A stretch of 64,000 nucleotides of DNA, from positions 2,033,501-2,097,500 of the forward strand of contig OU696577.1 in assembly GCA_916048095.2 (NCBI GenBank), given 5' to 3'. Below the pieces are notes generated by a model. The model searched no databases. It was given only the letters and a program-made list of their open reading frames with translations, and was not told the origin of the DNA. Within the stretch, counting starts at the first letter, position 1. Each line of letters starts with the position of its first letter. A program made the position numbers and the translations under genes. The stretch comes from Sacculina carcini (lineage: Eukaryota > Arthropoda > Thecostraca > Sacculinidae). Shown piece after piece: positions 18,030-60,000 of this stretch.

Positions 18030-18234
18030 TCAGAACCCTCGAAGGACTCCGTACGCTTCCAATGCCGACATGGTCACATAGAACACCCACAAAAAGAAGA
18101 GCACCCCGGATGAGAGAAGCTTCATCTTGCGTGGACCTCCCAGCTCTCCTCCAACACTGGGATGGCGACGCAACAACATCAGACCAACAGCGAATGCCGC
18201 TTCGACACAGAACAGCGTAACGGAAAACGCCAAG
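18030..18234 (-). CDS. NCX exon 8: last two transmembrane helices and stop
   Basis: 205 nt including TGA at 18030-18032; acceptor TTCACAG. Codon AA|C (Asn879) bridges exon 7. It encodes LAFSVTLFCVEAAFAVGLML, LRRHPSVGGELGGPRKMKLL and a final helix ending in EAYGVLRGF. The family ends in a very similar LEAYCHIKGF, so the C-terminus is complete. I saw no obvious AATAAA on this strand in the next 700 nt, so the poly(A) site is not located. Confidence 0.95.
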
Positions 18235-21200: not shown

Positions 21201-22380
21201 AAAAGCTTTTGATAGTCTCAACCACCATATTTTGTTCGACAAACTGGAATACCTTGGTATTAGACGGGTATGTCACAAACTGCTTAAAAGCTATCTGAAT
21301 GATAGAGAGCAATATGTGGCATGCAATAATGCGAGGTCATCGACTCTAGCAATCAATAATGGTTTACCGCAAGGGTCAATTCTGGGTCCAACACTGTTCT
21401 TAATCTACATCAATGATTTAATTAATGCCAGCGAAAAATTCCACTACACCATATATGCCGACGATACCACGCTTTTACTAAAGGATGACTCTCTGGACAG
21501 ACTGCATTCAATACTGATTTTGGAATTGGAAAAAATTAACAAATGGATTCAAGATAACAAACTGAAAATAAACCCTAGTAAAACAAAGTGTATTTTATTC
21601 AAAAACAGATCAATGCAATTTCATTTTCCTGATATTGACATCAACGGAGAGCGCATCAGCATGGTTAACTGCACGAAGTTCCTTGGATTGAAAATTGATG
21701 AGAACCTAAACTGGAGATGCCAAATTGATGAAGTGTGTAGCAAGCTTTCAAAAATTACTGGGATTTTCTATCGTACACGACACAATTTACCTTCAGATAT
21801 AATGATGAGTCTATACTACTCACTCTTCTACCCTCACATGACGTACTGTGTATCAATATGGGCAAGTACCTGGCCAACTTTTCTGCATTCAATACAAATT
21901 GCACAAAACAAATTCTTTCGATGTATCTATTTTATGAAAAAATACCAATCCACTGATGAAATCTATCGCAGCAAAAAAATACTAAACATTAACTCAATAC
22001 ATAAATATTTCACAGTACTATTGATACACAGGACTATACGATCTGGGTGACCATTCAAAGTACTGAACAGAGATAGACTAACCCGATCTAACAACTTAGA
22101 TCTGGAAGTACCTACATATAGAACGGAACTATACAAAAACAGCATTATATATGACGGACCAAAAACATTTAACGGTCTCCCGATAAAAATAAAAGAACTT
22201 ATCATAGAAGGAAGCTTCGCCAAATTAAAAAAGAAATTGAGACAATACTTGTCAACAAAACAATAAACTCAAGTGTACAATGATATATATGTATTAATGT
22301 GTATGAATGTGTGTGCATGTGTAAGTAGATGTATGTTTATGTATGTATATGAGTATATATGTATGTGTATGTGTGTGTAA

Positions 22381-23195: not shown

Positions 23196-26100
23196 CACAC
23201 ACCCACACACACACATACAGACAGAAATGAATGTATGATGGGTGCACACCAGCTGAAGCACGCATGATACGCTGATATATACCTAATAAAACACACGCCA
23301 ACACTATAAAACCGCCCTAGAAAAGCTCATAGAACTCATATCAAGGGCAGAAAATATATAATATGGAAGAGCCCCGAAAGTATTTATTAGGTGTATGTAG
23401 AAGATATTAATTTTCCCACGCCCACGTTCTTATGAATACACAGGTGATAGGCATCAAGTGACAGCTGCTACACGGGAAGAAGCCGAAGCTTATGAACACA
23501 CAGGTGCGTCCCGTGCAGCTCGCTGCCACCGCAGAACCGACCCCCACGCTATGGCGCCACAAGAACGGAAAAGGTATTGAAAGGCCACCTCCCCAGAATG
23601 CATGACACAACTCATGACTGATATCTAGTACCATCATTCACTGCTGAGTGAACAGGGGCTGTTGGATTATAGAGTTCACCCAATAAATTCTGCTCCGCCG
23701 GGTTATGAACTACGGACCTCCCGCTTGTAAAGCGGGTGTGCTACCACTACACCACCGAGTCCAACAGTTCTTAGCATTTTGTTAAATGTCTTCCAAAAAC
23801 TGTCAATATTCGCTCCCAATGACACTGTCCCTGTTTTTCATTAGAATATTTCCATTACGAGCAATTGTCATTACCTCGTACGGTATATGACACATGTGTG
23901 TTCTACTCGATAATCAAAACTTGATTACGAAAATTAGCCGTGACAATAATTGAATTGCTATTAGCACACACGCACACACACACACATATGAGCACAAACA
24001 TGCGCACATAAATTCAATTAGGTATCAGGTACACATCTATACAAACACCTATTCACAAACGCTAATACAAACACCAATGAACACATAATAGCTAATTCCG
24101 ACGAAGAGAAATGTATATAGACAATAGACAGGCTATCCGATGCCACTGGGGAACATTTTCACATATAATTTGATTTGTCACAGTGTAATAATCACTCACA
24201 AAGAACCCAAATTGATCTGAGAGGATCTTAGCCCCCCAAAAAAATGTGTCAGGCCCCCCCGGACCCCCCAAAAAATCCTGACGATAAATATTTCCAGTGT
24301 TGTTCCTCATGTTTCGCCAAACCCCTGAACCTTTATTCCTTAACCTACCCCCTCAGCCCCCCTCGTAAAGACCCTGGTACCGCCACTGATCCGTGGCCAT
24401 CACATGATTGACATCAAGGGAGATAAGAGTAGAATACACACGGAATGCACACGGTACACTAGACGTAACTGCTGAAAATGAAAGGTGATAATGGACGCTT
24501 TACATAATGCAATATAATATAATATCACAGACTATACATAATATCACGAAAATATCATATTACAAATTATTCATAAATCAAAATGCCGCCTCATGTCGTT
24601 TTAATTTACACGTGCATTTTTCATGACCGCTCTAAATACTCCCAGTTATAACAAAACTGTGAAGAACGTTTTTTTAATGATTCGTGTTGAATAAGCTTGG
24701 GTACATTTCTATTGCTGCTATGCCCAGCTAACCATGAAGCCAGCGCTTAATATTATACAATAAAGCAATACAGTACAAGGGCAAATATAGAATCCCTATC
24801 TATACTTTTCAGTGCTCTATCAAGATCTAATTATCCTTAGTAAGTCGCAGCGTACACGCTTACCAACCTGTAAAAGACCAAAAAATATTCCATTTGCTCA
24901 TCCATCATATATTTTGCAGTGTTATTCGGCAAGCACTCACTTGCCCGGAGGTACCATGAAGCGAGTGCCTTGTGTCCAGTGGTACAACGCGGCCATGCTC
25001 CACGCCACTCCGATTCCCAAGAAGACGTTGACAGCGTTGGATCCCGTCACGTTGCCGACAGACGCATCAGCATAGCGATCCTGTACAGCAGCTACTTTGC
25101 TGGCAAATGTATCTGCACCACAGGTCACGCCAGGTCAAATAAGATCAGCTGAATTGGTCGTTCTAATGATTTATTGCGTCTGTTACGTCTCCTTCCTCGA
25201 CGGCTGACCAAAAAATGATTGGATATTTATGGAAACAATTATCGTTTGAGCAAGGCGATCAGAAGTTCTGTCAAGATTTACGCCAATGAAAGAGAGCTTG
25301 AAGCATTTGTTCGATTATGCTCATATTTGTCTTAAAAAGTAAGGCGCGGTTATCAATTCGGTTAAACAAGAAATGTAGAGGTCACTTACTCTGACGAAAT
25401 TGAGCGAAGTATGAAATGCGATGAAGACAGATATACTTTTTTGATCCGGTAAATGATTTTTTGCTGAACAAACATCTAGGCATAGCAGATCACGACTGAG
25501 TGCAATACTTTTCATGCAGCATGCAAAGACAGAATATGCAAGGACACACCATGCAGCAGCAAGCCATTCAGCATATTGCCGACAAAACATTCCAGGATTG
25601 AAGACGCTCTCAATATCTTCCTTTCTCCACACTGTCCAAGCCATGACAAGCATTCAATACATCTGTGATAGAATTCGCACATATAGAGACAGGCCTGCTT
25701 GCGTAGATAATTCGCGTTGCTTTTTGGCAGAGGCGTTTGTTTGATCATTCATTCGCAAGTGAAGCATCTAAAAAGGTAAGCATGGACCATGTTTACCTTC
25801 TTTTTACCATGTTACGTGACCATTAGGGTTATGACAATATTTAATTTTCCGAAAGGAAAATTAAAATTCCTGCTATGTCACAAGTTGATTTTTTAATACA
25901 CACCTAAAAATACCAATTTTATGGGCTTTTGGTGAAAAAAGTTCCCCCACCAATACAAGTATATCTACCATATCATAGCATATCACAATAGAAGGAATTT
26001 TGGTGCATTATGTGATATTGAACGTATAATAATGAATGACTTTTCATTGTAGCATTGTGGTAAATAGATTGCTGATAATTTAGGTTTCAGGAGTATGATT

Positions 26101-29100: not shown

Positions 29101-32100
29101 AGTGAGTCGTTCCACGCATCTTGCGCTGCTCTATCCACCCCTGCATTGAATGCAATTAAAAAGCATCGCTTGTTCTGGATCTGCCCAACTTGCAAGAATG
29201 AATTTTGCTCATTTAAGCAGTCTCCTCCAGCGGAGAAATTGTCGGAAATATGCAGCCAGCTCACTGACATAAAGACGTCAGTGACGACCATGGAAACGAC
29301 CATCGGTCAACACACCTGCGGTAAACCAGCCAGCGTAACAGAGTGTTTCGCCCCACACCGCACCCACGCACCCGTGAAACGATCGTATACCGTAGTCGTG
29401 CGTGCCGGCGAACACAAAATTCACCAGGACGAGCTCAGATCGGTCCTGAAGACTGAGCCTATTCTCGCAGCAAGATCTTCTGACAACAAAATCGTGCTGA
29501 AGTGTGGCTCTCAGGAACAGGTGGACCGGGTGGCTGCATCTGTTCGCAATAACATGCATGACGTGAAGGTCGCTATCCCTGCTCCTATGCTGCAGCCGAA
29601 AGTCACAGTGGTCAATATCCCACTTGACTCGACGCCGGAGAGTCTTGCAACATCTATTCGGCTGAAAAATTCGGTTTTAGCTGATGCCTCGCCAGCGGAC
29701 TTGAAGGTACTCTTCATTTCAAAGACGCGCGCTGGTGCTGGTCTCGGAGTTCTATCAGTGTCGCCGGCGGTCCGCCAGTCCATCAAGAGGGCTGGTGATC
29801 GTCTATTCGTCGATCTGACGTCATGCCCTGTGTATGACCGCTTCTGGGTGGCACGATGTCACCGCTGTGCTCGTCTTGGACACACGTCATCCCGCTGCTC
29901 CCCAAGAAATCATACGTGTTGTGGCATTTGCGCGGGGTCTCATCTGTCAAAGGACTGTCCAGATAAGTCATCAGTGTGCTGTGTCAACTGTCGTCAGTCT
30001 AATCGTCCGCATGATCACTCATCGTTCTCGCCCCAGTGTACCTCACTCGTCGCTGTCCGAAACGCCCTGCGTAGTCGGACGCTGTTAGCTGAGCAATGTA
30101 GCGTTGATCAGTCCGTTTCCGTATCTCCACTGCGTTCGTCATGTGACCAATGACTAATGTCTTCAGCTGATATTCCCACCACACCGTTATCTTCTACAAA
30201 TGGTTTTCCTGTGCAACTGTTCTGCAAGTCTGCTGATCCTGATTATTCGCACAACAGCCTGCTGGGCTTACTCAACATACGCTCGGCTAGGAATAAGTGT
30301 CCATATATCTCCGAGCTTTTACTGTCTCATAACTTTGCTTTTCTATGCCTGGTCGAAACATGGCTCCTGGATACTGATTTCGGTTCTTTCTCAGCTAATC
30401 TCCCTGCTACTTACAGCGTACTGCATGCTCCTCGCTCTTCTTCCGGGTCTGTCAAATCCTCCGGTGGCGGTTTAAGTATAGTATATAAGTCAACTCTTTC
30501 ATTTTCTATACTTGCTGTCGCTCAATTTACTTCACAAGCTTTTGAATTCTTGCCGCTATCTTTATCTTTACCATCCATGCCAAAATTGGGAATTTTAATT
30601 GTATATCGCCCAAATCACCCTGGTACTACACCCATGTTTCTTGACGAGTTTGATTCTCTTATATTTAAATTCTCTCAATTCTTTTTGGATAACTTCATAA
30701 TTGTCGGCGACTTTAATTTCTGGCTCGACAATCCTCTGGCTAATCCTTTTGCGTCCGATTTTCTTTCACTTCTTAATTCTCATAACTTGGTGATATCAAA
30801 TTCCACTCCTACTCACACAGCTGGCCATGTTCTCGACATTATCATTTACCCTTCGACTTTGAGCAAGTTTCGTCTTTATGATACACTCACATTTCCTCCC
30901 GACAATACTTTTTCCGATCATTCTCTCCTTTCTTGCCAATTATACTATTCTCCTCCCGCACCATTCAAGGGGCCCTACATCTTTTCCGCACGTGATTACA
31001 GGTCGTTCTGTCCTATCATTTTTCAATCTTTGATCTCCTCTCTTTTGCCTCCCATTACCTACCACGGCTTTCATCCCAAATTTGTGTTTGATTTTCTGTC
31101 ATCTTCTCTCAGTGAGATCAATGAACGATTATTTCCACTGATCACTCGTCGTGTTCGCTCACAAACCCGTCCCCCTCCGTGGCTTTCGTCGGACTTAGTT
31201 CATATGCGAACTTCGTCCCGCCGTCTTGAGCGTAGGTGGCGTCGCTCTCGGTCGCCTAGTGACTGGGACTCTTTTTGCTCTGCTCGACATTCGTTTCTTT
31301 CTACACTGACCACGGCCAAAGCCGATTTTTATAAGTCACGCCTTGCAGACTGTGCTCGTTCTCCTTCGCGTCAGTGGTCCACTCTAAAACAGTTGACAGT
31401 TGGCAGCTCCTCTCCCAATCCTATTTCGGCTTCTACTTTTGCTCAATTCTTCCCTCAAAAACTAAATTCGGTTCGTGCCCTACTTCCTACAACCACTACA
31501 GTTCTCACTCAGACTACTTCATCCTCCACTCTGTCTAGTTTCTCCCATATCTCGGTAGCTCATACTTCTCGCCTTATTAAAAAACTTAAAATTTCTCGTT
31601 GTCCTCTCGATCCGATTAATTTCTCTGCTTTGTCTGACTCCATTCACCTCCTTTCCCCCATTTTTTCCCATCTCATCAATTCTTCTTTTCTACATGGTTT
31701 ATTTTTTGCTGATAAATCTGCTATTGTCACACCAATACTGAAAAAACCCACTCTTGACCCTAACTGTCCTGGTAATTACCGCCCTGTTTCCGTTCTGAGC
31801 TTCACTGCCAAGCTGCTGGAGTCGGCCATACACGAGCAATTATCACCTTTGATAAACACCGTTCTCGATCCTTTTCAATCTGGCTTTGTATCTAATCGTT
31901 CCACTGAATCTCTCCTTTTGCACCTATTGAACGATATCTTCAATCATTTTGCCTCTGGTGACTCTGTTCTGCTTGTTCTGCTGGATCTCTCTTCGGCATT
32001 TGACCTCGTCGATCATGCAATTTTGTGTGACGACCTTGCCGCTATTGGACTCTCTTCTACGGCTCTTTCATTGATGAATTCATACTTTTCTAGTCGTTCT

Positions 32101-35100
32101 TATTCTGTTCGCTCTAATTCCACTTTTTCGAGTTCTGTAAAACTTTCCAGTGGCGTACCTCAGGGATCAATATTGGGTCCGTTATTGTTCAATTTGTATA
32201 TGTCTTCTCTCTGTCCAATTCTTCATCGTTTTCCTATTTCTTACCACATTTATGCGGATGATCTACAGCTGTACTTTCCTATCTCAAAATTTTCAGAAAA
32301 TTGCATTTCTGCGGTTTTGAATAATATTACATCCTGGGCTTCATCACGCCATCTACTTTTGAACCATTCCAAGTCTGAATATATTGTGTTTCATCCTCCC
32401 AAATTATCTCCTCCAATAATTCCATTACCCCTATCTCAGTGTGTTCGTGATCTTGGTGTACATTTTGATCACAATCTCTCTTTCTCAATTAACATATCAC
32501 GTGTGACTCGCTCCTGTCGTCTTATTCTCCGCCAACTTTATCCTATCCGTCGATTCCTTGATAATGCTACAGCAATCACACTTGTACAGTCCTTAATTTT
32601 CTCCAGGTTAGACTATTGTAACTCTCTTTATCTTCATGTTTCTTGTAAAAATATACGCTCGCTTCAGAAAATTATAAACCAATCTTGCCGTTTTGTTTTT
32701 CTTCTTCCACCGAGAACTCCCACCTCGAAATTCATCCGCCAACTTGGATGGCTTCCTGCACGGCAGCGAATCCATCACAAGGTTTGCTGCATCATCTTCA
32801 AGATCATCCACTCCGACTCTGCTCCTCCTTATCTCCGTTCTCTTCTTACTGTTTCTGATCGTCCGGGCCGCTCACTATCACGTAGTCTCTTCTGTCCCCG
32901 TGCTCTCAACGACTCCACCTGGTCTTCGAAATCTCTTTTTTTCTCTGGACCTCGTTTGTTCAATGAACTTCCTCTTAAAATTCGATCTTCTCTCTCTTAC
33001 AGGTCTTTTTCCACTTCTCTTTGTACATATCTTCTCGGTGTCTCCTCTGATGAATAATTATATTGAATAACTGTTTGATTTTTTTTTGATTTTTTTTCAT
33101 TCATAGTTATTTTCAATTGTTCCTTCATAGTATATCGCTGCTTATATTTTTGTTTATGCGATACTGTTTTGTTTATTCCACATTGTATACATTTTATAGC
33201 TAGCCGTTCCTCGCGCCTATGATAATTAGAGCGCTATATGAAATACATGTTTTGTTGTTGTTGTTGTTGTTGTATGGTTAACGATATAAGTTTCTGTATG
33301 GTTCAGTACAAAGGGGAATGTTTCGCAAATCGTGCTATAGTAGGATAAACAACATTAAATGATATTCTGAAGAATATTGTAGGGCGATACTGATATTGTG
33401 CCCGTTCAATTGATTGTATGGGTCTTGAGTGTTCGTGTGTCGTATTAAGCTCATGCACATACTTCTCCAGAATGGGCTGAACATTTCCCATATGATTAGA
33501 ATTTTACATTGATCAGCCCCTTCCCATTTTCCACATTCATCAGATATGTTTTGGAAGCGGTGGGTTGTGTGGGTGTGGTCGTGTATAGGTCGTGGGAAAT
33601 CATGCCCAGGTCAGGACAAAAACGTCTGGAAACATCACCTAAAATACAATCACGAGAAAATCCTTACACTCATTCCCTCTGTGTGTCTGTGTGCATACGT
33701 ACGTGTGCGTGAGCCTAAGTTTGAAACAAACAGCAGAACATTTCAACAAATTAACATCGCAGAAGCGTTCACGCAAAAGTCCTCGACCGTGTGTACAGCA
33801 TGTCCTCATGCAAAGCCCATCACCACAAGTCCATCAACCGACAATTATCAACCGATGGAAAAACAGAAGCCTATATGGTTCAATTGAATAGACTGCGAGA
33901 ATTCTCCCTCGGGCCTGTCTTCTATACTTTACGTGTAATTATCCCCGGATATAAGAGACATATTCCCGCTCCCTACAACTCTCTTGTATTCGATTTACAC
34001 TGTATAGCCATACAATTGTTCAACAGATAAAACTGAGCGTAAAGCGATAAAAACAAATGAACCGTCACCAGCATGTAATGGTCCATATATACGCCACCAC
34101 CGTTGCCCCACACCTGTCTTAACTACCTGGCACTGAGGTGCCAAAGGCGACTAGCGAGAGCGCCGTGATCGAGTCTTTGATGCCGCAAGAGCAGCCGAAA
34201 TGAGACGCAACATCGCCGATGACTGCCGTCAACATACCGATTCCAGCGATTGAGCCAACAAAAGCTGCCCATCCATTCCAGCGGTCTAACACCGCACACA
34301 CGCACACATACATATTATCTACAGGTGATTTTGTAACTTAATCTACACGAAGACTAAGGTTATAATTCAATCAAAACATATTAATTGAAAACGGAATACA
34401 AAAAATAGGAGAAGAATACATTTGGAAGTGAAAATTTGTGTGGAATCAAAATGTTGGTAGCATTTGAGTTTGTTTCAGGTTGTGGAGACACCTTGGCATA
34501 ATGATTGATGTAGGCCCGTGTTTATCGGTAGCTCAATATGCGAGCTAAGCAGAGACCAATGGAAAAATACCCCAGCGTTATCAAGAGTTACAACAACAAA
34601 CATTCCTGATTCAATGGAGCGTATTTACGTTTCCCTTAGTCCATGGACAACGTTTTCAGAGTCAGGGCCAGATGCGACTCTTGGAAGGAGGTGGTAGACC
34701 GGAGTGAAAAACAAAACATCAGACCACTACTACTACTAAACATAATAATGACAATAATAATAATAATGAAATGTAAAATTAGTTCTTGAAACCTTAAGAT
34801 TTATTGGAATTTCTTGACTGCATTTAGTGGGAAGTCTGCGGGCCGGATTGCAATAATGAAGCATAGCAGGATGGCGGGCCCGATGTGGCTCGTCCCTGCC
34901 TAAGTCAAATTCATTACACATGATGGCATATACATATATGTTGGAATGAAGATACTTGAGTGAACTGATTTTGATAACTAGATGTTGGTCCTGTAAAATC
35001 GAGATCCACTAAATTTGTCCTCGCCCGAGAATGGAATTCTCGGGATACGACCATACGCAACTCCCAGTGGACTCGAACTCTACAAGAGCAAATTCAAGGA

Positions 35101-38100
35101 ATGTTACCACTTGCAGAGGGGAAGTCAGTAGTCAACAGACCGACATCCAAACTACCATCCTACTGTTGATGATCTCTGGTTGTCACGCGTCACGCACATA
35201 TAACTACGTCAAACGATACGTTCGAATTCACAAAACACAAACACACACACGCACGTAAACATGCACATTGTGCGGTATTTGCTGTGTCCCTCGACATTCT
35301 AATTTCAGCCAGTTTGCATACAAGTACAAATGGGAGCTGTGTATCACACGTGAACATCATGTACTGCGTCAGCGACACGGAATTATATACATTCACAAAT
35401 ACCCCGACACACAAAATTTAAACAAATCTTCATGTGTGTGTGTGTGTGTTAGTTTGTTAGCGTGTGGACAGTATGATATGGCTTTGTAAGAGGTCGCATT
35501 TCTACCACTTCTCGTTAAGCATATTATCCCGACACCATCCACAACTCATCTGTCTCATCATCCAGCATTATTACTGTGGAGATCACTAGCGTGTTCACCG
35601 CATACACCAGCGAATATAAGCACGTGGTACAAAACGTGCGGTATGCAGTGGTGGCGCCAAGGGGGGCTTCAGTTCACCCCCTCCCCACCCTAAACCCTCA
35701 CAAAAATCCAGACCATGTCAGTGTTTAATGGTTTGTTCCGTGCCTTGAAAACTTCAATCGCAACATTTGGTCAATAGCATTAAGGTTAGCATTTTCAATA
35801 AAAATGGCATTACTCAATGAGAATCTCAATTTTCACGCACGCACGAGCGCCCGCACCTATTTCCTTAGCCCCGCACCGGAGAAATCCTGGCCCCGCCACT
35901 GGCTATATGTCTGCATTATGAGCTGGTCTTGGCATTTGCTGCCGTTGGAACTCCGAACACGTTCCTTATATACGGCACACCAAGAATCCGAGTAGGAGCG
36001 TGTGCTGTGAGAAGCACCGACTTTATGAGGCCGCACGTCTTCCAACACGCAAATTTACAGTGCCGCTGTGGAAAATCTAATGTCATCAGCTTGTGAGCGG
36101 TCCGGTAGCAAGACTGCCTCATCGGCTCAACGGCGAGCACTTCCGCTTAGTGCAGTGCTTCACAACCTTTTTCGGCTTGCAACCAAATTTATCATGTCAC
36201 ATTAAGCATGCTACCCCTATCACAAAATATTGTCAGCATTGAACTATAAACGGCTCAACTAAAACACTAGAGATAAGTTCATTTAATTATTGTATACGCA
36301 TATTCTGCATCTCTGATTACTTTAATAATCTCAATACCAGGTACCGTAATGCTTTCCTGATTTTCAGAATCCTTAACATTTTTCCGTCACCGCTTCATTA
36401 CCTCCCAAAAAATTACCAAATTACCCCAGATGGAAATTTACCCCAGGAGTAAATGCCGTAATTTACCCCAGGGGTAAATGCCGTAATTTACCCCAGGGGT
36501 AAATGCCGTCATTTTCCTCTGGGTAATTGGGGGTAATTTGGGTAAATTGGGGGAAACCTCCAGGGGGTAATTTACCCCGGGTTGGGAACCAATGTTTGAG
36601 TGACTGGTCGATTAAAGCAGTGTTCGTGTGTGATATCGTGCCAGAATACAGAAGTGATAAGCGGGACAAAGTGATACGCAATAAATCAAACAGTGCAAAA
36701 CTATGACAGGCCCGTGAAAGTTTGTGAAGTGCGTGCTCCCACATATAATATATTGGTTACCTCGGTGCAAAATAGTTCACCAAGATGACTGACAGAATTT
36801 CGGATGCTACAGTAACTTTCATGCAAAGTTGAATAGCTCATTCGGAAGCATAACATTGCGCCAGTGTAAAATACAAAATAAATTGAAAAACTACGTGCAG
36901 GCCGAAAAAATACAAAAATAATTTCTTTAAACACATTTGCTCTTTCTAGCTAGCATTCATACATAAACAGAAGAAGCGTTTAAAACAAACGGACCATGGC
37001 TTCGCTTATTGCCGTAAATTAAATAGTCATTCTATTTCTGCTGTGAAGCGCACACTGCAACTGCTGTGCATTAAAAGACACCGTGCAACGATTTCCAGTT
37101 GGAAACACGTCCAACGAATCAGCGACGCCCAAATATATCAGTGCGTGGCCAATTTGCGTAACGTTGTCAGCTGCCAACAGCCATACATGCTCGCCAACAG
37201 CATACGTCAATTTTCGAGCTCAGATGCAAGGATGGGCAAAATTCCGTTTCGCTCTCGCCCACAAGATATCATTGAATAAATTTATTGAACAATATTTGCA
37301 ATGTAAGTATCCCCCGTGTAGAGATGCAAACACATTACTGAACTCTTTAGACTATTTCACCTTGAATATTATAACTTGAAAAACTACGAGTATTAAAGTC
37401 TCTTTCACGTATTTGTCAAATAATTGCTCAAAGACGTTGAGTAAAGTATTTTCGTATAGAATATCACAACATACCAGGTCTTACAAACAACCTACTGTAT
37501 TACACCTGAACAGATCATAAATGCATCGTTTGAAACATCAACAGATCACTTTCAGGTCTGCTCTTTCAGTCAACTTCACTGCCACTAGCTTACACTTTGC
37601 CCAACCTTGCCCCGAGCTCACGTGTGCTCCAGAGGTGCGTCGTATTTGGTGCGGTGTATTTGGGTCGTATTCTAGCGAGCCTACTGTCTTTGATGATGTT
37701 AACCTGGCACGCTGGTACCCAGCGCCACAATTGAGATGGCCGTGACTGTGTCCAGCAAGCCGACAGTACAGCCAAAATGACTGGCAGTGTCACCGATGAC
37801 AGACGTCAACATTCCGATCAGAACAATCGATACGACAAAACAGGGATAACCGTTCTTCAGGTCTGCGCAAAACATCATTCAAGCTGCACTCGAAAATCAC
37901 AATTGAATTACATATGCTTATCTGGGGGCGGCAAAATACACAAGCACATACCTTGATTGTCGGATCTCATACTGGGTGGTATTGGTTTGGATGAAATCAG
38001 CTTGTTCTGTTCGTAAGAAGCAATTATTCTCGGTCGCAGTTGAAATCGATGTATACAAGCGGTTTGACAAACCCAAAACCACCCGATCAAATTTCGACAG

Positions 38101-41100
38101 CTCGGAGATTTTGTAACAACAGCACGCCTACGATGATTCAATATAAGAGAAAGACCACAAAATTTTCTCTGAAATATTGCAAAAATGCTCAAACTCATTG
38201 ACAAAATACAATGTGCAGACAGATGCCTACCGATATGTCTCCACCCGCTAGTGAGCGACAGTTCATAAGGTTAGAAAACCGCAAATGTCGGCGTCGAAAC
38301 GAGGAATGTCGCAAGATTATTCACATTTGGTATAGTCCCAAATATAGAAACGATTCCACAACACAACCAATAAATATCGCTGCAAAAACAAACCCCAATA
38401 TTGGAACAATTTAACCCACATGTCATGGAAACTCCTTGATGCTATGTCGACGACATTAGAGCGTGGTTTTGCTTCGATTCAAAACCGCTCCTCCTCTAGA
38501 TGTATGTTCCATCAACATGTCATGATTCAACACAGTGTTTGACACAATAATGACGTCATGTAAGAAGATCATGTGAGTTACAAGCCATCCAGCATGCTAC
38601 GGTGAACGAGAATATACGTTTGTGGGTTAGAAATCACAATAAGAAAACTGCATGCTGATATTAGTTGCTTGTTAAGTGGAAGCTCCGTAAAATGCGGTTC
38701 AAAGAGCAATCCACATATGTAAGGGTACCGACGGTATGTAAGGGAAGTTATCTAGAATAGCTGGGCAGACAGCTCAAGAATTGAAACATCCAAGCGAAAC
38801 AGCATACAATAAAAGAACAGGGCTGTCTCAAGCTAGATCTAGATTGATCTGGATTGGGGAGTTTGTCATCACCACATTGCGCAAACCACCGCCTTGATAA
38901 CACTGACAATCATGCAAGAATCTCAACGGGTACCTTTGCCGTAGATAACTGACAATACTTTCAGCATTGGTGTGTCAACAATACGATTTTTATTCGAACC
39001 ATATTTGAACGAGAATGATTGCATGATTAAAAGGTGAAATGTAGGACAGAATGTCTTATTTCTATCACGGGCTTCTACCACGCCACAATGCGCTGAGCAT
39101 TTCACGAAGTAGTGCAAATAACTTAGTATGTATGTTTTAAATTCAAGTCTGCACAATACTGACTGTACGACGTGAATTGAAAACTCCAGGGTTTAAACAA
39201 GTCAAATGTCAGAACCAATTCGCAATATTTATCAGACGCCGTGGTCTACGCATTTTTGGTAGCCTTATTCGTAAAAATTAATCGGATTCTTAGAAGTTAT
39301 GCTGCTTTACTAACTCGATTATTGCAGCCATAATATCTCGTACAACCGGAAATCGTTTGATATTCTACTGAAATCCATGATAGCCAAATAGCGAAGTTAA
39401 CACGAAGTTTATTTATAGAATTTATCTTGCATACATTTTCCTTGGATGCTGCAGCAATACGAGTCCAATGCCCACAAATGGAAATCGATATTTGCTACCG
39501 TAGCGGGTAATTGGAGAGCGGTTGTGGTGATGACAGTGCAGTTAGAGGCTACAACGCAAGCGGGTAACACGCTGGTATAATTGTTGACACATCAGGGACG
39601 GGTAGATTGACTGCCAGTATCTTCACAGCGTCTCGGCGGCATATCGACAAACTGGGCACGCCGGCCACCCACCTGGCACGCTGGTACCGAGTGCCACCAG
39701 CGAAATAGCAGTGATTGTGTCGTGCAGGCCAACCGTGCAACCAAAATGAGACGCGACATCACCGATGACAGCTGTCAGCATGGCGATTCCCAGGATGGCG
39801 CAAACAAATGTCAGATAGCCGGAATACAAATCTGCCGACATTTGTACGTGAGTTACTGGAAAAGTGCAGACCTCACTACACGCTGTATTCACAGACCGAA
39901 GAACTGCGTGGATTGATAAAATAGTGGACAAGGACCAGAAAATTCAAACCAAGGTAAGTTGTTGCAGTTCAATCGAAAACGGTAGAATGCAGTACAACTT
40001 CAACGACGGAGCAACGACGAGAAGAAAGCAGTTCGAGAATCCAAACTGACGCAGAAATTTCGATAGGCCTCCGAATTCAAGATCCATGAAATTGTTTATG
40101 AAAACAATTTCATTGACACATTAATGACTCGGTTTACAATAGCAGAAGCTATTGGCAAGAAGCGATATTTCTCCTAAAACCAGGAGCAATTCACATTGCA
40201 TGAGGAAACATCATTCTGCTATCAAACAAGATTCGCATATGAACCGGAAAAGTGATTCTGCTCCCGATGGCAGTAAAGCGATGGTAAGAAAAGGAAAAGG
40301 CATTGAAAAGGCATTGAATTGACATGAAAAGGCACTTGACATATGCAATGCATCATCAGAGACGCATTGGAGTACATACTAATGAGAATCATATCGCCAA
40401 AGTGAATCCCAATGCGTCCCAATCCCAAAATCGTTGGTGGTATGGCACATAGTTGGAGGAAAAGACTTCCAGGACTTAGGGAGCTCATAAAATATTTTGG
40501 CAGTGTCTTAGGATTGATGATTGTCAAATTTAGTGGTTGATTGCCACCGTCGAAGAACGAGGCAACGTTTGGTGAGAACGGCATGTATCCTGAAGTTCTG
40601 GAGAATCGGCAAATATCATGACAAAGAATCGTCACCAGGATTACCAGCTGCATGCCCTAGGATGTTTATAAGTAAAAAACAGTCAGCACACAAATGTGGT
40701 TGAACACACGCATCGGCAAACAGTATCAATGGCGCAAGACAAGTGAGCAAACAACGATTAATGAACGACCAGACTTGCAAACTAGCTCTCAGAAGAAACA
40801 GGCGAATGCTCAAGATTGGCATCCAATGCGCCATGCAATTGCATGTTGAGAACACGGTGGTAGATCTGGAGGGCGTAATCTTGCAGCATCCACTGGATTA
40901 CTGGTTCTGGCATGAAGACACACACACCTGGCACACTGGTACCCATGGCAACGAAAGCAATGGCCGTGATTGTATCCAGCAGACCAACGGTACAGCCGAA
41001 GTGTGACGCTACATCGCCAATTATCGCCGTCAACACTCCGACACCCAAAATCGACGCCGCAAAACACGGATAACCTTTCAGCATGTCTGGGGATACAGTT

Positions 41101-42273: not shown

Positions 42274-44668
42274 TAAAACTTTCATTTGAACGGCACCTTA
42301 AGGGGGAATAATTGAACAATATTATAATTACCTCGATTACTAATTACTATTATTATACCTCTAATTAAACGTCACCTTGATGAATTCTAATCTTTTGGGG
42401 ATAGTGAATGACTGAGTGATTTTTATTAGTGACTTTGTGATTAATTATCAGTAATCACCCTGTATTTGTGTCATTTATCAAATATGCATACGCTATCTGA
42501 TTATTTTCTCATCTATAAAATATACCGTATCCTCTCAAAATTCTGACCAGCTGGTGGAAAATAGAACGGTTTCGCTGATTGAAGGGCACAACGGGGAAGA
42601 TTTGAAAAATAGAACGACATGCCGTTCAAATAGAGATTTTACGGTATATACAGATATTTAGAAGAAACAAAGGACACCACAAATACTCACTTAAAGACCA
42701 GTTTGCTGCGTAACTCGAACTTGCTGAATACGATGATAATCTATGGATACATTAGTATGTATGCGTACTCACATAGTTGAGCTCAGTTGGTTGCAAGCTG
42801 CGGGAGGTGAGTATTGCTCGATCTATTCGTAGCTCACTTGATCCAGCCCCAAGTAAACAAGCTGCCTCTATAATACTGCCTTCAAGCTGTTTCAGGTTTT
42901 TGTACGGGGAATCGATTTTTTCCTATCGCTTAGACACTTAGTTTTCTTGTTTTCAAGTCCCCTTATATCGTCTTCTATTCAAACAAAATAATTATCCCTT
43001 TCCATTTCTTCTAGTTTTGCTTTGTGCCTATACAGATGGATGAGATCACCCCCAAGTCTGAGTCGTACCGAAATGGCTAGCTCAATTTATCAAGGTTTTT
43101 CTTGTACATCAGCCGTTTTAATTGTTGGTACATCCTGGTTGACGCGTTTCAGTATCCTTTTCGAATTCCTTTTGTACTTCTTTCTAGCAGAAAACCACAC
43201 GGTCAATGCGTGTGTGTATTTTTCATTGTATTTTTCTTGATTGGTCCAAGTCGGCTGGCTGGAAATGTCAACAATGTCCTCCTGACCCAGTGTCCAACAC
43301 TCAACAACGAATTGGCATTTATATTCTGGAGCACTTCTCTCCAGCACAAACTCATTTGCCGGTGTGTGTGTTTGTGTGTGTGTATATCTGCATTCATGCA
43401 TGTGTGTGCGTGTGTGTGTTTGTGCGCGTTTGTGTGCGTGGTGTGGTTGTGACACATTTGTGTGGTTAATTTGCGTCAGAGGCTGGAACAATAGACAATA
43501 AATTAAGTGTCTACACACACTAATTAACTATGGTGATGTCTCGTTGAAAATTCAATTAAAATTTTCCTTCAACTCTAGGAAACGGATAACAGTTATATTA
43601 CTCTATAAGTGTACCAGTAATCCATAGAGTTAATATGAATTGTTTAACGTAAATGTAAGATCATTAGCTGTATAATTCAATCATTAAAGCTTAGATAAAT
43701 TAACGATTGTTATGTATGATACATTTTTAGCTGCTGTTTTCTCATCATACGCACCTGTCGGAGGCACAAACGCAAAAAGAACCTTCCAGAAGACGGTGAT
43801 AAAGTGCATGATGTAGTCGCCACAACTGGGCAATTTCTCCTCGCCGTCCTCATCAGTTCCTTCATTATTATCATCCCCTGCCGCATAAACAACAAATTGA
43901 ACGTATTGCTGTATTTCACCGTGAAAAAGATACCTTTTTTGGTCCAAATTATCACTGGGTTTTCAGCATCAGCGCGTAATTTTCTCCAGAATACCGTAAA
44001 TGCTCAATTTATCCCACAGGCTCTGACAATCCGGTAAGCTCTAATAATCCGGCACCCGCAGGTATTGGTTGAAATATAATCCGGCAGGCTCTAATAATCC
44101 GGCACTTCCTGGAAAGTGCCGTATTGAAACTGCAGACACGATTCAGTTATAATTCAGCAACAGTTTATTTAGCAAATTAATACACAGAACAATACACTGT
44201 GGAGATACGCGTCTTCTCTCGTCCCTGTTATCAGTGCACTATTTTTTGTGTTGCAGTTTTTGCGCAATCCTACCGTGCCGAGTGACCAAAAATAATCCGG
44301 CAGGCTCTTATAATCCGGTACCATACGCAGGGGGTCAAAAAATAATCCGGCATGTCGGATAAAAAGATAATTTACGGTATGTGCTTAAAAACGGAGGAGT
44401 GTCTAATAAACAAGCGTCTCTTATACAAATACGGTAATTTATTTGCCCAGAAGTAGTTTTCATTTTGATCTACACCGCAGAGGAAATGATAACTCCGATA
44501 CCACCTACACGGCATGACTTCAAGCCACCTTGATGTTGGAGCACCACGGGACTAACGCTCGACACTATTCATAATTCCACCATTCATAATTCGACACACC
44601 CAATTTTAATACATTACATTACATTAAGACATTTATATCGCGCTTTTCACCCGAGGGTCTCAAAGGCG

Positions 44669-44737
<69 letters not shown>

Positions 44738-45600
44738 GCACAAGAGTCATACACATAGACAATCACGAACACACACACTCACCTGCATACACACACACAT
44801 ACACACACACAAAACAGAGAAGTACATATACGCACAACCACAAACATACACTCACGATCACATACTCAGAAACACAAAAATACACACGCACACACACATA
44901 AATATTGAATAAGATAGTACAGCAGACATACAGCACAGAAGACAACAAAACATACAACATATCAATATAACACAGCAGGCATACAACGACATACACTCAG
45001 ATTGACAAATCACAACACAATAGAAACACAAATACAAACCAGAAAACACAACATATCAGACACACAAAGACATACACTCAAACAAATAGACAGAGAACAC
45101 AACACAACAGACACACAAACACAGATAACAGAGCTCAACACAACAACACACATATATATACATATACATACATATATATACAGCATACAATGGAGAAACA
45201 TACAGACACAAGAAAGGAAAACTCACGCATGACACATATATAGACACACACACACACACACACAAAATAGGAAACCAATTTTGCTGAGATGAAAGGTTAC
45301 AGCTGACATCGTCCACATTTTACATCACCGACTATGTACGTATGACGAAAATTAATCCCGTACAAGACGTTGATTTTTCGGGCTGTCATTGCGCGATGCT
45401 AATTACTCGTCAGTTACGGGACCGCTCTAAATTAATGTCCATTTTGTCATATAATTACTGTTAATCACTGGCGACACCGCTGAATGTCTCCATCAGTGAC
45501 CAGTATCCGTGTGTTCGTGTGAGTGTGTACGTGTGTGTGTGAGTGAGTGTGTGTACGTGTGTGTGTGAGTGAGTGTGTGTGAGTGTGAGTGTGAGTGTGT

Positions 45601-45642
<42 letters not shown>

Positions 45643-48600: not shown

Positions 48601-51022
48601 TGAGATTTGCTGCTCACCTGCAGACACTGTGATGGCCTCCACAAACTGTTCCTTCCATGATGATGTGCCGACAATAAACGACGCATTGGCTCTCTGAACC
48701 AACTTGTCAACGGTATTCTAGAAAGATCGATACAAACACACACAAACATACACACACACCATACAGAATGGACGCAATATGTGTGTGCATGGCAAAAGAC
48801 GATATCACATTGTACCAGCATATTTGTGAACATATCTAGGAGTCAGCAATCTGATGAGCTCACTGGATTATGTCACAGAAGAACGCTGTGGGAACACAAT
48901 ACTGTATAATCGCTCCATCATTTTCTCTTTGACGATATTTATCCAGATAGGCATAGTGATTCAAAAACAATAATAACACTGGATAACAAAATTACTTTTT
49001 GGAAAAATCTTCCAGGGTTTTCCAGCGGAATTAGACTGACTGATGATTTATAATTCATCAGTTTTTCACACCCGTACTGCTTCGTTTAAATCTTGTTTCC
49101 AGATGATATTTTCTTTGATCCGTTCATGCTCTTCTGGACACTTGGGATGTATGGGGTTTCCCCGTGGGACAGTGCATGGAATGTCTGGACTCGCCCCATA
49201 TCATTGCTTATACCTGTATTGAATTATCATAATGAACACGGTGAGATAATGGCAAACGTCTATTGGTATCAGTGGCGGCATTAAGAGGGTAGCTTGGAGG
49301 GGCTTCAGCCCCCCCATGTGTCAACCCCCTGAGCCCCCCCCCAAATCCTGACCATGAACATTTCAAGTGTAGTTCGTCATGTTTCGCAAAGCCTCGCATC
49401 TTTTTCCGTAGCCCCCATCGGAAATATCCTGGCGTCGCCATTTATTTGTATGTATATATTGCCTGGTTAGTTCTACGTCTGCTGCTGGTAAATCCATACA
49501 GTCCAGCACGAACACTAGCATAACCGGCTCCTCCACTGTTGTGCGGCGAGGATGGTTGATAAACACCTTGCTTGGGCGTATGGGCGTATGAGATAGCTGG
49601 TAGCCCACAAACACCTCTCTTCCATTATTGAGTGCCTGTTATGCACCTGTATTTTTGTCCATGTGCTCTTTTAATTTTCGGTCTGTGGATCATTTGAGCT
49701 CTTGATCAAGCATATATCGTATTTTTTGTTTTCCTCTATTAGAATTATGGGTGACATTCATCTATATCCTGTACTCTACCCTTCCTACTGTATTTTGAGT
49801 CTCTTCAATAACTTCAGCTAGGTAGTTGATGGAAAGCAGCTTGAATCGCACCTATTCCAATTAGGTCACTTCCACGTATCGCAAATGAGATATTCTCAAG
49901 TCACTGAGTGCTTGACTTCCTAGGATGAACGCTCACGACTAAGAAACACCCCCACATTACCTTCCAACAGTGACGACGCCAGAATTGATTCAGTGCGGAT
50001 AGGCTGAGGAAAAAGATGCGGGGGCATGGCGAGGATTTCTTTTGGGGAGCGGCTCAGAAGGATAGGTTTGACAAATTATTGGGGGGCTTCAGTCTCTCCA
50101 AGCCCCCTCCCTGGGTAACGCCACTGCCATGCAATAGCTTCATCACCGTTTTGCTTATGCTGCACCGGCTAAGCGTTCTGTTAATTACTCGCCAGAACCC
50201 GTCTTCATCCCATCATCACTGGCACATTAACAACACATTGATTAAGCAGTTGGAAGTAGGTGAACGGCTTGAGATGGCAATGAACAGCTGATGCCCGCAC
50301 GGCCTGCGCAGCACTTTCAAACTTTGTTCAAGTCTAAAGCATCAGTATCAACAGAGACAGGACAGGCAGTCCAATCAATGTGTTGAAAATAGACGCACAA
50401 ATTGACAAGCGCAGAACTTGCCTACAAGTAATATATGGTGATAGAATGGGTGAAAACTGTCCAAGTCATACAGTTGCTTGTCTAATATCTTCTAGTTGTA
50501 CTCATTTCCGCTCTACCATATACTCATAGACCAAAATGTCACTAAACACAAATTTTACATAATAACGTATTAATTTACAATAATTTAGCATTGATTAGAA
50601 TCAAATAAATATCATAATTTCAATTGTAAACTAATAATGAAGTTACAATCAATAATCGTAATCTACTGATCCCGATTAAATTCCCATTGGAACTCTAGAA
50701 ACCTAATCGTAATCTATCATTAGAAATTGTAATCCACTCAATAGATTACGATTATGTTTCTAGAATTCGAAAAATTTCAAATGGATAGAAGAGGCTATTG
50801 TAATGAACTATAGTCAAACACTTTCATCCACATTCTCAAAACAGCAAAAAACTAAGGCCAAACAATAAAAGCACCAATAATACTCAACCTACGTGTCATC
50901 CGGTTGCAACAAAGTGAAACCCTTTCCATTCAAAAATGAACCGAGAATATACACTAGCGTGAAATAAGCGCCGGCAATCATTTGTGCACGAAAATGCATT
51001 TGTCGAGCGAAAATGTGTGGGC

Positions 51023-51067
<45 letters not shown>

Positions 51068-54000
51068 TGTTCACACTTGAATGACGTATGCCCACGAACT
51101 GGCAGCCTTTTCTGTGAGCGACGTGGCGCGTAATTGAATGACAACATTTTTGCCGAGTGCCAACATCGAAGCAAAGCGTGTGAAATGCTTGAGACATCTC
51201 CGTTAAGAATATATTCTGCCTTTGAAAAGTTTTAGTGCTCATCGCAATTGCTATTTGCTCACTGCCCAAACATCAATGCACATACACAAGATGAAGACAA
51301 ATGACAAGTTAATATGTTTGATAATAATTTATATCCTATTCCTTCTATTTTAACATTTTTAATTTACGTATTATATATTTTCTATCAGAAAGCGAAAATT
51401 GTATTTGATTGTAGTTATATTTAATATTGTTTGCAACCACACAGTGGCACAGAAATGCCTGTGTGACAGTGCGACAATATCGAATACGTTGAAAATCAAT
51501 TAGAAGCTTGCAAAATTAATTATATATCTTTCATTCTCTGCAATAAAATAAACCACATCAACGGGCTTCAAGTTGAGCTGTTTCAATGTCCTTGAAAGTT
51601 GGGCTTGAAGCAAAAAATCGACTGAAATTTAGGGCCAATTAAGTTGTACAATTTCTACTCATAAGTTATTAATCTTTATAATTGTTCTATAATTTATGAG
51701 TATTAGATAAAAAATAAAAAGTTCCGCTATAAAGTGGTAGATGATTCAGTAATATTGATTAATATAATAGATAAATAAATATTGATATATAAATACATAT
51801 ATATATATATAATAAACATTGATAAATTGTTTTCAAACATAACGTATACAAATACTAAGCCTGTACCTTCTTTTGTGCAAATGACACATCTAATACAAAA
51901 TATGAAGCATTTTGCTGAAATGGGAGTGCTATGCCCCAGATAATAATGACTGAAATCAACTAGCTTTTCGACAGTGGCGGATCCAGAGTGCAATTTTGAG
52001 AGGGGCTGAATTAATTTTTGGGGGCTGAATTTTGGGGGCGATCATACATGTACATGCATCACTATGCAACGTCTCTGCGATAATCAGTATGCGTCTTTGC
52101 GTCTTTTCGATATCAATAAATTATATATAAAAATATTTTTCTTGGTCTCTTAGTGAATCTCTTGGTTATGAGGAGTCGATGGACAGATTTGGAGGAGGTT
52201 TCAGGCCCCTGAATCCGCCTCTGAATCCGCTAGTGCCGTTTGACAAGTGATTTTTAGTGCAAATCAGCCCTGCCTATATAACTACACAACAGCGTGCCAA
52301 TTCGCAACAGTGAGACGATCATGCATAACCGCTGACGAACACTGTAAACGTTGGCTTCTCGTTGGTTTGCTGGTACATTACACGATTACGACCCCAAGGG
52401 GCAATAACACGAATGACCATTGCACGGCCATATTGCCGAACAATGCCCCGAAGCAATGATCAATATCATCCACTCATGCAATGTCTCTCAGATCGGGAAT
52501 CACCTTGAATTCCTTGCTTTCCTTTACGCGTATCTGCGTGCGAGTGTAGTCCCCCAGCTTGGGCTTTCCGAGTAGAGCGATTTTCTCCTCTTCGGTTAAC
52601 TCGTTGAGACTTTTGTCCTGGAAGTCGAGTGTTGCTCCTGCCAGTCCATTGACTGCAAACACAATGCAACGTATGTCAACTAGCAGTCAATACAAGCTCA
52701 AAATGAGCCCAGTTCCCAATAACATCAGTCTCAACATGATCTTAAAGTAAAACACACACACACACATAACGACTGTTTTAATACGGGAAAACATGACTGC
52801 AATTCATCGTCTGAATTCTCTTAAAGCCAACTACGAATGGTTTGGTTTATTACGCACAAGCTCAATTGAAAATTAACTTGTTCACCACGGTTGGATAACG
52901 CATAGTGAGAAATATACACGTTAGACATTTTAAAAAATAGCTTCGATGGATTACTGATCATTACAACACTGTCCAGAACTAGAACCACTATTTTATTCGG
53001 AATAAACAATATATTACGCATTATAAAACATATTTGTGCTGAACTTCACAACAAAAGCTAGCAAGCATCGTAGCTGATGTTGCAAGCGAAGAAGCAATGT
53101 ACATGCGTTGATAACTATATGCAAACTGTCATGACTGTCTTTCTGCTATTTGGCATGATATAATGCAAGCGCATCAGTTGCAAAAATACTTGTATTATGT
53201 TGGTTATTTATTAGAGACAGATCGAAATTATACTGAGCCATATTTAATATTTAAAAGAACGGATTGAAAAAATCATCTGTTCTGAATCATTTTATAATCC
53301 AAATATTGTTAATTGTATTAATAAGTGTTTAATCCATTGCAGAAACGTGCTAAAAATTGAAACATTAGTTAATACGAGTAAACTATTTTCATTGAGAATA
53401 TAACGTTACTATGTATGTATGATAAAATGTATGCACGTTTTTTTGTGCTGAAAAAGTGTCTGATGATTGTTTTCTCACCCCGTGATATTGATATATAATT
53501 AATGTTTTGGTTGGATTTCACTGTGTTTGTCGATTGGGTTTTGTCATTTTTGTGATAGGTTATACTACCCTACTGGTTATACTCGTAAATGCACTAAACT
53601 GAACGCTTAAATGAATGTAATGCCTGAATGAAAACCTGGTGCTTTTGCGCAATTTTGTGCAATATATTGACTGATTAATTATTTACCATTTGTGCAACTT
53701 TTCTATGTGAAGCTTTTTCTCCAGGAAATATATGTGCTTATTATCTCAAAGACTGGCAAAGCATATCAGGTTTTGTACACTGGAATAATAAGTTTTGAAG
53801 AAGAACATCGTTCCACATTAGATATATGGCATGTAACCTGAGACAAAAAGTTGCCCAAACAGATCGTATGGTAACCAGGAAAATCAAATCGCTGGTCAAT
53901 AGAGGTTCCATTAGTTTTTTTGTCTTGAAAACCACTGAAATTACGCTATGGCGAAAAATGAACATATTGGTCCCACGCCACAGTCACACTTGGTACGCCT

Positions 54001-57000: not shown

Positions 57001-60000
57001 ATTTTTTTAGCAAATGTGCGAAAATAGTGGCAAAATCAAAAATCAAAAATGAGATCGCAAAACCAGTGTGAAATCCTTAGCGTGTAAGTGACTGATCGAT
57101 GGTACATGAGTTCAGCATTTGCATCAACATGGTCCCAACTAGACAAGTGATGACAATTTAGAAGAAACTCAGATGCACATATACTCTGAGGAGAATCATG
57201 CATATTTCCGAATTTCTGACGAATACAAGTTCTTGCATAGTCCATAAGCAACAAGTATTTCCAAAACAAAGTATTTGAGTCGTTTGATGGCGTAATAAGC
57301 CAAACATTCATTTTACAAAGCGTTCAATAGGCCCGCCGGAATATTGTCAATGAGTGGTGTCAGGTCGACTGATGAGAACGGCTGATAACCATGGTAATAA
57401 TTGGACTGTCCCTTGTCCCACTTTGATGCACCGTAGCCAAGTGCGCCAATGATTTGGTCTCGCTCACCTGACAAGTAGCGAGGCTCCAATATCTCGACGT
57501 AGAAGAGAACGTCTTTCTCGTAGCTGTCCTCTTCAATTATCGGGATATCGATGAACTTCCTGCAATCACCGAGGTACAGAAATCAGTCAGAAGCACTTGC
57601 GATCAAACATGATTCAGACGAATAAATCACAATTGTCAAAAGTCATTCAGGCAGTGGCGGCGCCAGGATTCTTTTGATGGAGGATATTGGGGGGGGGGGG
57701 GGGGCTGGGGGGGCTAAGGAAAAAGATACGGGGGATCGGTATAAAGAAACATCAATAACTACATTCATGGACATGATTTATGGGGGGCTCAGGGAGGCTT
57801 GGCACATTTTTGTGGGAACATCATCCACTCCAAGCCCCCCTCTTGGTGCCGCCACTGCATTCAGCGTGCTGGCGAATAACACTCATGCATAGCAACAGAT
57901 GAACGAAAATCGTTTTTGCCTTTTCAACACGGTCACGATCAAAGCTTAGAGCCAACACAATCACTGATAATCACTCGTACAACCCGTGATGTGTCTTCGA
58001 CTCCAGCTTGCGCACTACCATCGCATATTACTTCACACCTCCCGGGAGAGACAAATGGAGACTGAATCAAGAGGAAACAAGATGAAGCAGGGTGAACTAG
58101 ATCACAGCACGAAACAAGAAGACGCAACAAACGTAAGGAGTATTAGTAGCACCGAGATATGTCCAGCCGGGCAACACGAGATTCACCAGGTTTTTGCCGC
58201 ATTCTCACATGAAACCTCACACTAATGACAATGCGCAAATAACGTTAACATACAAACATGACGATAGCCAAAGCACACGTTTCACGTACCACGTACTGGC
58301 GTTTTCACGTACACACCGACTAATTACGCTGCTTACGATGCTACTCAAATATACCCGTTAATCTAAGGCGAACATGAAACCAATGGTCTGCAAATGTATG
58401 AGGAAATTTTGAGAGACAAAATTTTCTAGTTATCCAACATCTGTCCAAGGAGAAGAAATGCATTGGCATCGATGGGTGAACTCAAGCAAATCAATACAAT
58501 ATAACTACCAATTCAAAAGCCATGTATGAACTTGCTAAGATTGTTCTAATTATTAAAATATTTGATAAACACCAAAACAACAAAAGGCATCAGAGAATTG
58601 CATACTCTGTCAAAAATAAGCAATCCGTCTGAATAGATACTGTCCATAAATTCAGATATAATGGATATCAAATATGTCTCACTTACTATCCTTCAAATTA
58701 TAAATAAAAAGCTTAATATTCAAGAGTGCAACATATAAATTAAGAAGTGAAAACTAATTATTATGACTCACTCGGTTTCGTTGTTTTCGAAGATGAGCTC
58801 TCCTTCGGTTTGATCGAAGTCCTTGCCGGCTTTGGCTGTACCGTCAATGGTCTGAAATGGCACTGCCACCCTCCCGCGTGCACCTGACCACCTTGAGATC
58901 TTCAAGTGGTACACTCCGACCGACTCAACAATCTCCACGTCCTTTTCGGCCACATTGAAGATGCCACCGTGGTCGTCGTCCAGTATAATCACCGTGGCAA
59001 CAAATGGTGCCGCCAATTTCATCTCCGGCATGTTGTAAGTCCGTCCCGCGTCACCGTTCGCCTGCGCCATCCAGTCAGACCCGTCCGCATTGGCTGCACG
59101 CAGATTAGACAGCTTCAAATAAAAATGTTCATCTTCCTCAAAAAGGTCGTCATCGATGACGGCCACTCTGAACGTTTGGGTAGTATCGCCTCGTCCAAAG
59201 AACAATGTACCGGCAACGGCCACATAATCGCTGCCCGCACTGGCCGACCCGTCCTCCGTACGAAAATCGACCAATACGCAATCGTCCGGATTACCTCCCT
59301 CGCGACGCACCGTCACCTCAAAATCTCCCACACTTTCCATCACCGTGTAGTGGCCCGGATCAAATGATACTTTAATTATATGACCATCTTCAGGTCTCAC
59401 TTCCTCTAGTTCAACTGTTTCTTCTTTCTTGTCGGTGTGCAATGCCTTCTTGACCAGATTTCCGCCTCCGGTAAGCTTGCGAGTGGCTTGAATACGGTAG
59501 AATGCCCTCGACTTAGGACCAGCCTGCAGCACGTCTTCTCTTGCCATAAGCTCGAGCTGCTCCATGTCCATATTTGGATGGTCCTTACGTAGTTTGCGCA
59601 GTACTCTGATGTATTCCCTTCTGTTCTCCTCAAATTCGCGAACGTGTTCGTCTTGGTTCTCCTCATCCAATTGCTTAAGCTCACCGCCCCTAAAATCCAC
59701 ATCCTTCCCTTCCAGCTCCACACCTTGGCCTTCGATGATAACACCACGTCGATTCAATCGGTAGTTCTTTGAAGTATATTTGTAGAACAGAAGTCGACGG
59801 TCAGCAATGTAAGCGGTGAGCACGGTTGCGGGAAAGAACATGAGTGTTAGCAATGCTTCCCATATCTCGACAACTCCCTCCGATATGACAGCCAGAATCA
59901 CATAGAGCCAAATGTACGCCAATATTGACCATGAAGCAGTGACAAAGAAAACTCGCAAGTGCTTAATTTTGCGCACTTCACCGTCCGGAATTACGTACAC

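Follow-up and report, generated by a model that had tools for sequence, protein, structure and literature searches.

What does a transporter gene gain from holding one membrane-spanning exon in four copies, and is only one of them used at a time? The question is raised by a predicted Na+/Ca2+ exchanger (NCX) gene in a 64,000-nucleotide (nt) stretch of the Sacculina carcini genome (assembly GCA_916048095.2, contig OU696577.1, positions 2,033,501 to 2,097,500), which we call the window and to whose first letter the positions below refer. We suggest, with a probability of about 0.82, that this single NCX gene carries the exon for transmembrane helix 6 (TM6) and half of TM7 in four tandem copies, that one copy enters each mRNA, and that the choice tunes the gate of the exchanger. 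We favour this reading because the four exons are matched and constrained, the gene around them encodes a complete NCX, isoforms elsewhere vary in this exon, homologues on short contigs hold one copy, control gene sets hold a single version, and the exon falls on TM6 and TM7.

The four exons, E1 (40928..41086), E2 (39673..39831), E3 (37704..37862) and E4 (34127..34285), all lie on the minus strand and have the structure given in a preliminary description of the window. Each is 159 nt long, has AG directly 5' and GT directly 3', and is in phase 1 at both ends, with an Asp codon, G|AC or G|AT, divided by the entry boundary and a G at the exit. Each holds 52 full codons without a stop, and the four translations are collinear and gapless, with pairwise identities of 97-112 of 159 nucleotides and 31-38 of 52 residues. 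E1, E2 and E3 are of the GY type and E4, the last copy of the array, is of the GW type. Human NCX1, used as the query, matched E1, E2, E3 and E4 in tblastn with E values of 5.3e-16, 6.5e-15, 3.1e-17 and 5.7e-17 and with 58-70% identity. The exons are adjacent and share length, phase, kept splice sites and homology, which are the marks of a mutually exclusive cluster (the latter four as given in the title of PMC3228551).

The likeness of the four exons exceeds chance, and each copy is under constraint at the protein level. This is concluded from an excess of differences at third codon positions (26-34 per pair, with 14-18 at first and 6-12 at second positions) and from random placement of equal numbers of DNA changes, in which none of the 2000 simulations run per pair, for all six pairs, yielded amino-acid changes as few as those seen (14-21 per pair, against 28-35 expected). 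No fifth copy was found in the window by tblastn, the next best match (E 0.16) being the gene's own alpha-1 repeat. Elsewhere in the 264 Mb, 43-contig assembly the segment was matched, among the best candidates scored, solely by one copy in two intron-split pieces, which belongs to a divergent NCX paralogue on contig C19 (near C19:7435121). This paralogue, at about 7432300-7439160, has one TM6 segment, interrupted by an intron at a different place. Two further Na_Ca_ex loci, on contigs C18 and C4, have identities of 31% and 26% to the alpha-1 half of the window gene and in our judgement resemble SLC24.

Spliced between its neighbours, any one of E1-E4 yields a 946-residue protein with no internal stop, and these models bear out the proposal of one NCX gene in which a single membrane segment has four homologous alternative exons. 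The constant exons, likewise on the minus strand, were located by tblastn with human NCX1, and their splice sites were refined by eye. Exon 1 (58772..60612), whose start codon was picked by eye and whose donor is GTGAGT, encodes the N-terminus, TM1-5 with the alpha-1 repeat, and the regulatory loop with Calx-beta 1 and a portion of Calx-beta 2. Exon 2 (57468..57559) encodes Calx-beta 2 at the place of the vertebrate exon A/B, exon 3 (52504..52652) the end of the Calx-beta 2 region, exon 4 (48618..48717) the loop preceding the membrane, and exon 5 (43755..43877) the amphipathic segment directly before TM6, ending VPPT. Beyond the array, the constant exon 7 (24941..25112) encodes the remaining alpha-2 repeat (DTFASK...GNVTGSNAVN), and exon 8 (18030..18234) the C-terminal helices and the stop codon. 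The E3 version matches the curated NCX1 model TIGR00845 over residues 42-946 with 1360.5 bits (cut-off 679.85), and in the E4 version Pfam finds two stretches of Na_Ca_ex, two of Calx-beta and one of Na_Ca_ex_C. By this domain layout, with the Na_Ca_ex halves on either side of a loop that holds both Calx-beta domains, and by the TIGR00845 match the window gene is an NCX (SLC8) exchanger, with Na+/Ca2+ exchange as its predicted activity. To judge from identities among the best 120 matches listed, it is nearest to barnacle NCX: the closest proteins are P0009 (83%), one of Pollicipes pollicipes (78%), and P0122 (78%) and P0008 (73%) of Amphibalanus amphitrite, and all others reach at most 69%.

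Which part of the exchanger would the four exons replace? In an AlphaFold model of P0009 (mean predicted local distance difference test score 69.2, predicted template modelling score 0.48; block means of the former 71-81 over residues 741-800), the exon maps onto residues 745-797 and spans TM6 (helix 746-778), the short loop after it and, counted from its start, 16 residues of TM7 (helix 782-808). Human NCX1 aligns to the segment without gaps. Across E1-E4, 26 of the 53 positions are identical, including GTSVP, already described as common to all four, and the A of A-x-GTS, which by analogy with NCX_Mj we take to be ion-ligand positions. The acidic residue following GTSVP is a split codon, for which the alternative exon supplies G and exon 7 supplies AT; exon 7 also encodes the GNVTGSNAVN stretch. 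The other 27 positions vary, and TM6 accounts for 19 of them (among its 33 positions), the TM7 part for six (among 16) and the loop for two. The preliminary description had taken the exon for the alpha-2 repeat and its exchange for a swap of the ion-transporting core. The first view holds for the start of alpha-2 through GTSVP, but most of alpha-2 is in the constant exon 7; the second is not borne out, as the presumed ligand positions are the same in E1-E4 and it is TM6 and TM7ab that vary instead. Since these positions are invariant and the GNVTGSN half lies in exon 7, we read the segment as gate helix TM6 followed by the beginning of alpha-2. With the site positions as assigned above, the earlier reading is corrected: splicing would swap moving parts of the exchanger, and not its ion site.

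That TM6 is a moving part comes from electron cryo-microscopy: in two reports TM1 and TM6 are gating helices, packed loosely and sliding along the core (PMC10897212; PMC10550945), and a third attributes the inward-outward change to sliding of TM1/TM6 together with bending of TM2ab and TM7ab (PMC12119087). From the symmetry with TM2, TM7ab would end near GTSVP. As TM6 slides, TM7ab bends and the exon covers both, the exon, as placed on the model, would account for nearly all that moves in the C-terminal half of NCX; and because both motions occur in each transport cycle, a kinetic effect of exon choice is likely. Alternatively, the copies could be used singly and still be functionally equivalent, so that the array is neutral or serves expression control only. 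The 26 unchanged residues and the constancy of the presumed ligand positions would fit such equivalence, and a functional difference is a prediction from sequence, but more than half of the positions vary (27 of 53, with 19 in the gate helix) and similar arrays occur in crustaceans, insects, springtails and a sea spider. We regard equivalence as unlikely, and prefer exons that differ in how they gate the exchanger.

How widely the array is shared was seen in a comparison set built from three database searches (best 120 each, 279 distinct proteins) and scanned with a profile of the segment. Among these listed proteins 266 hold one copy, seven hold two, one holds three, one four, two five, and two none. 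Ten have copies in adjacent tandem, two of them with one partial copy; Oppiella P0152 was left out of this count, its two copies lying 391 residues apart. The ten come from two species of the decapod Petrolisthes, the mayfly Cloeon, the copepod Tigriopus, the sea spider Pycnogonum, the springtails Orchesella and Allacma, the termite Cryptotermes, the brine shrimp Artemia and the leafhopper Cuerna. No tandem copies were found outside arthropods among the matches listed. The preliminary description had proposed to look for the same cassette in the NCX of other species; tandem copies or alternative versions were indeed met, and such arrays appear, from the protein records, to exist in at least 12 other arthropod genera, nine with tandem copies and three more via isoforms. 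In 8 of 11 arrays (the window and the ten tandem proteins), E4 included, the beginning of the last copy shows a GW motif; the exceptions, with GY, are the two springtails and Cryptotermes.

Isoforms and short contigs suggest single use of the copies. The databases list for Cloeon dipterum the isoforms X1, X2 and X3, each of 916 residues, with 13-16 differences between them and none outside the exon, and the three tandem copies of a fused Cloeon model, P0003, equal the X1-X3 versions save for one residue in the first. Equal-length isoforms that differ solely in the exon are also listed for the cockroach Periplaneta (X1-X3, 899 residues) and the crayfish Cherax (X1-X3, 926), and differences are likewise confined to it in Cherax X5-X7 (924) and in X3/X4 of the stick insect Bacillus rossius (889). 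Procambarus X2 and X13 carry different versions but, differing in 14 blocks spread over the protein, may stem from two genes and were not counted. Of the proteins on contigs of 2.9-6.5 kb, all 41 counted hold one copy, or 43 of 43 with P0107 (listed next to fish) and P0154 (Procambarus), which were omitted from that count and later found to have one copy each. As the window gene spans 42.6 kb, these short contigs are probably transcripts. Nine vertebrate gene sets (55 isoforms) and three fly and bee sets (7 isoforms), taken as controls without four Astatotilapia UniRef entries and duplicate Misgurnus entries, show a single version each.

Several observations weigh against single use. In ten arthropod records 2-5 copies are joined in tandem; among them Cuerna P0234, which we assume may derive from a transcriptome, Cryptotermes X2 and Artemia X2 carry two successive copies. 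Cherax X10 and X11 are without any copy. The exon length is a multiple of three and the phases are equal, so that an mRNA which skips the exon or takes two copies stays in frame, and exclusivity cannot be kept up by the decay of out-of-frame mRNA. Between the copies lie introns of 1096, 1810 and 3418 nt with GT-AG sites throughout, which gives no steric basis for it either. RNA pairing is reported to direct exon choice in insect Dscam; a search of the window array for a shared docking sequence that could pair close to every one of E1-E4, in four arrangements and with two statistics, gave in one of the eight tests a lowest value of 1 in 150 shuffles (docking before exon 7), the others ranging from 5 to 146 in 150.

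The multi-copy records could mean that mRNAs normally combine two or more copies and encode extra membrane segments. However, seven of the ten (P0001-P0007) are named hypothetical, unnamed, partial or predicted and in our judgement look like uncurated models that fuse neighbouring exons, the 43 short-contig homologues each hold one copy, and an added TM6 with half of TM7 would upset the inverted topology of the exchanger. Joint splicing as the normal form is therefore highly improbable in our view. The mutual exclusivity claimed in the preliminary description stands in part: it agrees with the equal-length isoforms of four arthropods that differ only here, but two-copy and no-copy records exist. 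With neither reading frame nor intron size constraining it, the choice of one exon per mRNA must, we infer, be regulated.

Are all four copies in use in the window gene? For the Sacculina carcini array, known here from its genome sequence, one-at-a-time use is likely, but perhaps just one or two copies are used, with the rest being unused leftovers of exon duplication. By an approximate matrix, E3 (GTTAAC, -1.17) and E4 (2.65) have donors that seem weaker than the donors of E1 (5.44) and E2 (5.71). The donor of exon 1 in the same gene also scores low (2.78), so a low donor score need not mean an unused donor. Moreover, constraint is seen in all six pairs, no copy contains a stop, and E2 and E3 each cluster with other barnacle or near-relative sequences. 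In a tree of 68 segments and 53 columns (copies under about 46 residues excluded), E2 groups with Pollicipes and Amphibalanus P0122 with an ultrafast bootstrap of 99, and E3 with P0009 and Amphibalanus P0008 with 97, or 98 under a second model. Under that model the nearest rows of E2 are the same, while its smallest well-supported set has 30 rows and its bootstrap is unsettled. Because each groups with different barnacle sequences, E2 and E3 probably split before these barnacles diverged. Unused leftovers are in our view decidedly unlikely, and we keep to the reading in which each mRNA takes one of four functional exons.

A recent local duplication was considered and is disfavoured, though short of rejection: holding E1-E4 as one clade costs 34.6 log-likelihood units, with an approximately unbiased (AU) test p of 0.081, above 0.05. 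A single old class of last-position exons would be no more than a possibility. E4 clusters, at a weak bootstrap of 42-47, with further GW-type exons, of which many close their arrays; holding 16 of these together gives an AU p of 0.237, which neither rejects nor establishes such a class, for a set chosen after the tree and with 53 columns, which are too few.

If one exon is used per mRNA, splicing would pick one of E1-E4 and give a complete 946-residue exchanger each time. The products would share their regulatory domains and presumed ion-ligand positions, and would differ in the gate helix. Exon choice by tissue or stage could then set the turnover, the balance of inward and outward states and perhaps Na+-dependent inactivation, but not the choice of ion. 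Single use in Sacculina carcini, its regulation and the functional differences are thus what we infer from the comparisons above. In a wider form, to which we give even odds, arthropod NCX would long have had an interchangeable cartridge of TM6 and TM7ab in up to five versions, some exon types being separate orthologous lines, so that splicing sets the kinetics of alternating access with the ion site and the regulatory domains fixed. If this is true, the single version in flies may explain why such arrays have been overlooked in the model-organism literature. Four gate helices on a fixed transporter would be a natural experiment on the speed of a sliding-door antiporter, with 27 positions changed, and the array may account for tissue differences in invertebrate Ca2+ extrusion. 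Rasgado-Flores and Blaustein reportedly derived the 3:1 stoichiometry from barnacle muscle in 1987, which raises the question of which isoform underlies those data.

The long introns of the gene hold other elements. Antisense to the gene in the intron between E4 and exon 7 is a pair of open reading frames (ORFs) like those of a retrotransposon without long terminal repeats (28975-33057, plus strand), one of 392 aa with a PHD-finger match and one of 966 aa with endonuclease and reverse transcriptase matches. A second reverse transcriptase ORF (20893-22050, plus strand; 385 aa, RVT_1) lies inside the intron between exons 7 and 8, and an ORF at 1744-2643 on the minus strand resembles it by look alone. 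Two long GT-rich tandem arrays (45510-46620 and 47915-48173) are both within the intron between exons 4 and 5. Matches to tRNA above the gathering score at 18580-18651 (plus strand) and 23691-23761 (minus strand) are possibly tRNA-derived repeats and not genes.

How does the array compare with known systems? No description of alternative TM6 exons in NCX was found among the titles, abstracts and passages of the open-access papers searched. The words "exchanger" and "SLC8A1" are absent from the main text of a tandem-exon survey (PMC9741552), "Calx" and "exchanger" do not occur in PMC3228551, and the sole "Calx" passage of PMC10228280 glosses calnexin and leaves exons unmentioned. The arrangement, which had been called undescribed, may be so within this literature, but public protein databases already hold such isoforms, apparently unremarked. 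The preliminary description was right to place known NCX splicing in the Calx-beta 2 loop: passages on vertebrate NCX put alternative exons A-F in CBD2 (PMC2408596; PMC9820601). Exons A and B are like E1-E4 in being homologous alternatives within the same family, chosen by tissue there, but those two lie in the cytosolic Ca2+ sensor CBD2 and the four of the window in the membrane part. In the papers searched, NCX splicing is presented solely as a way to tune this sensor, and a swap of the gate helix differs from it. Drosophila Calx is an orthologous arthropod gene in which, according to a passage of PMC10484994, mutually exclusive exons are reported that can also act as cassettes. Unlike the window gene, Calx-type genes of two other flies have isoforms that vary over 7 residues before the CBD2-TM6 link and have one TM6 segment. 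In Ca-alpha1T of protostomes, too, homologous tandem exons in a membrane protein contribute one per product, and the tandem-exon survey states that tandem duplicated exons are overrepresented among genes for ion transport (PMC9741552). Dscam of insects and muscle myosin heavy chain are likewise described as having arrays of homologous exons from which each mRNA takes one, as we suggest for the gate helix of this exchanger.

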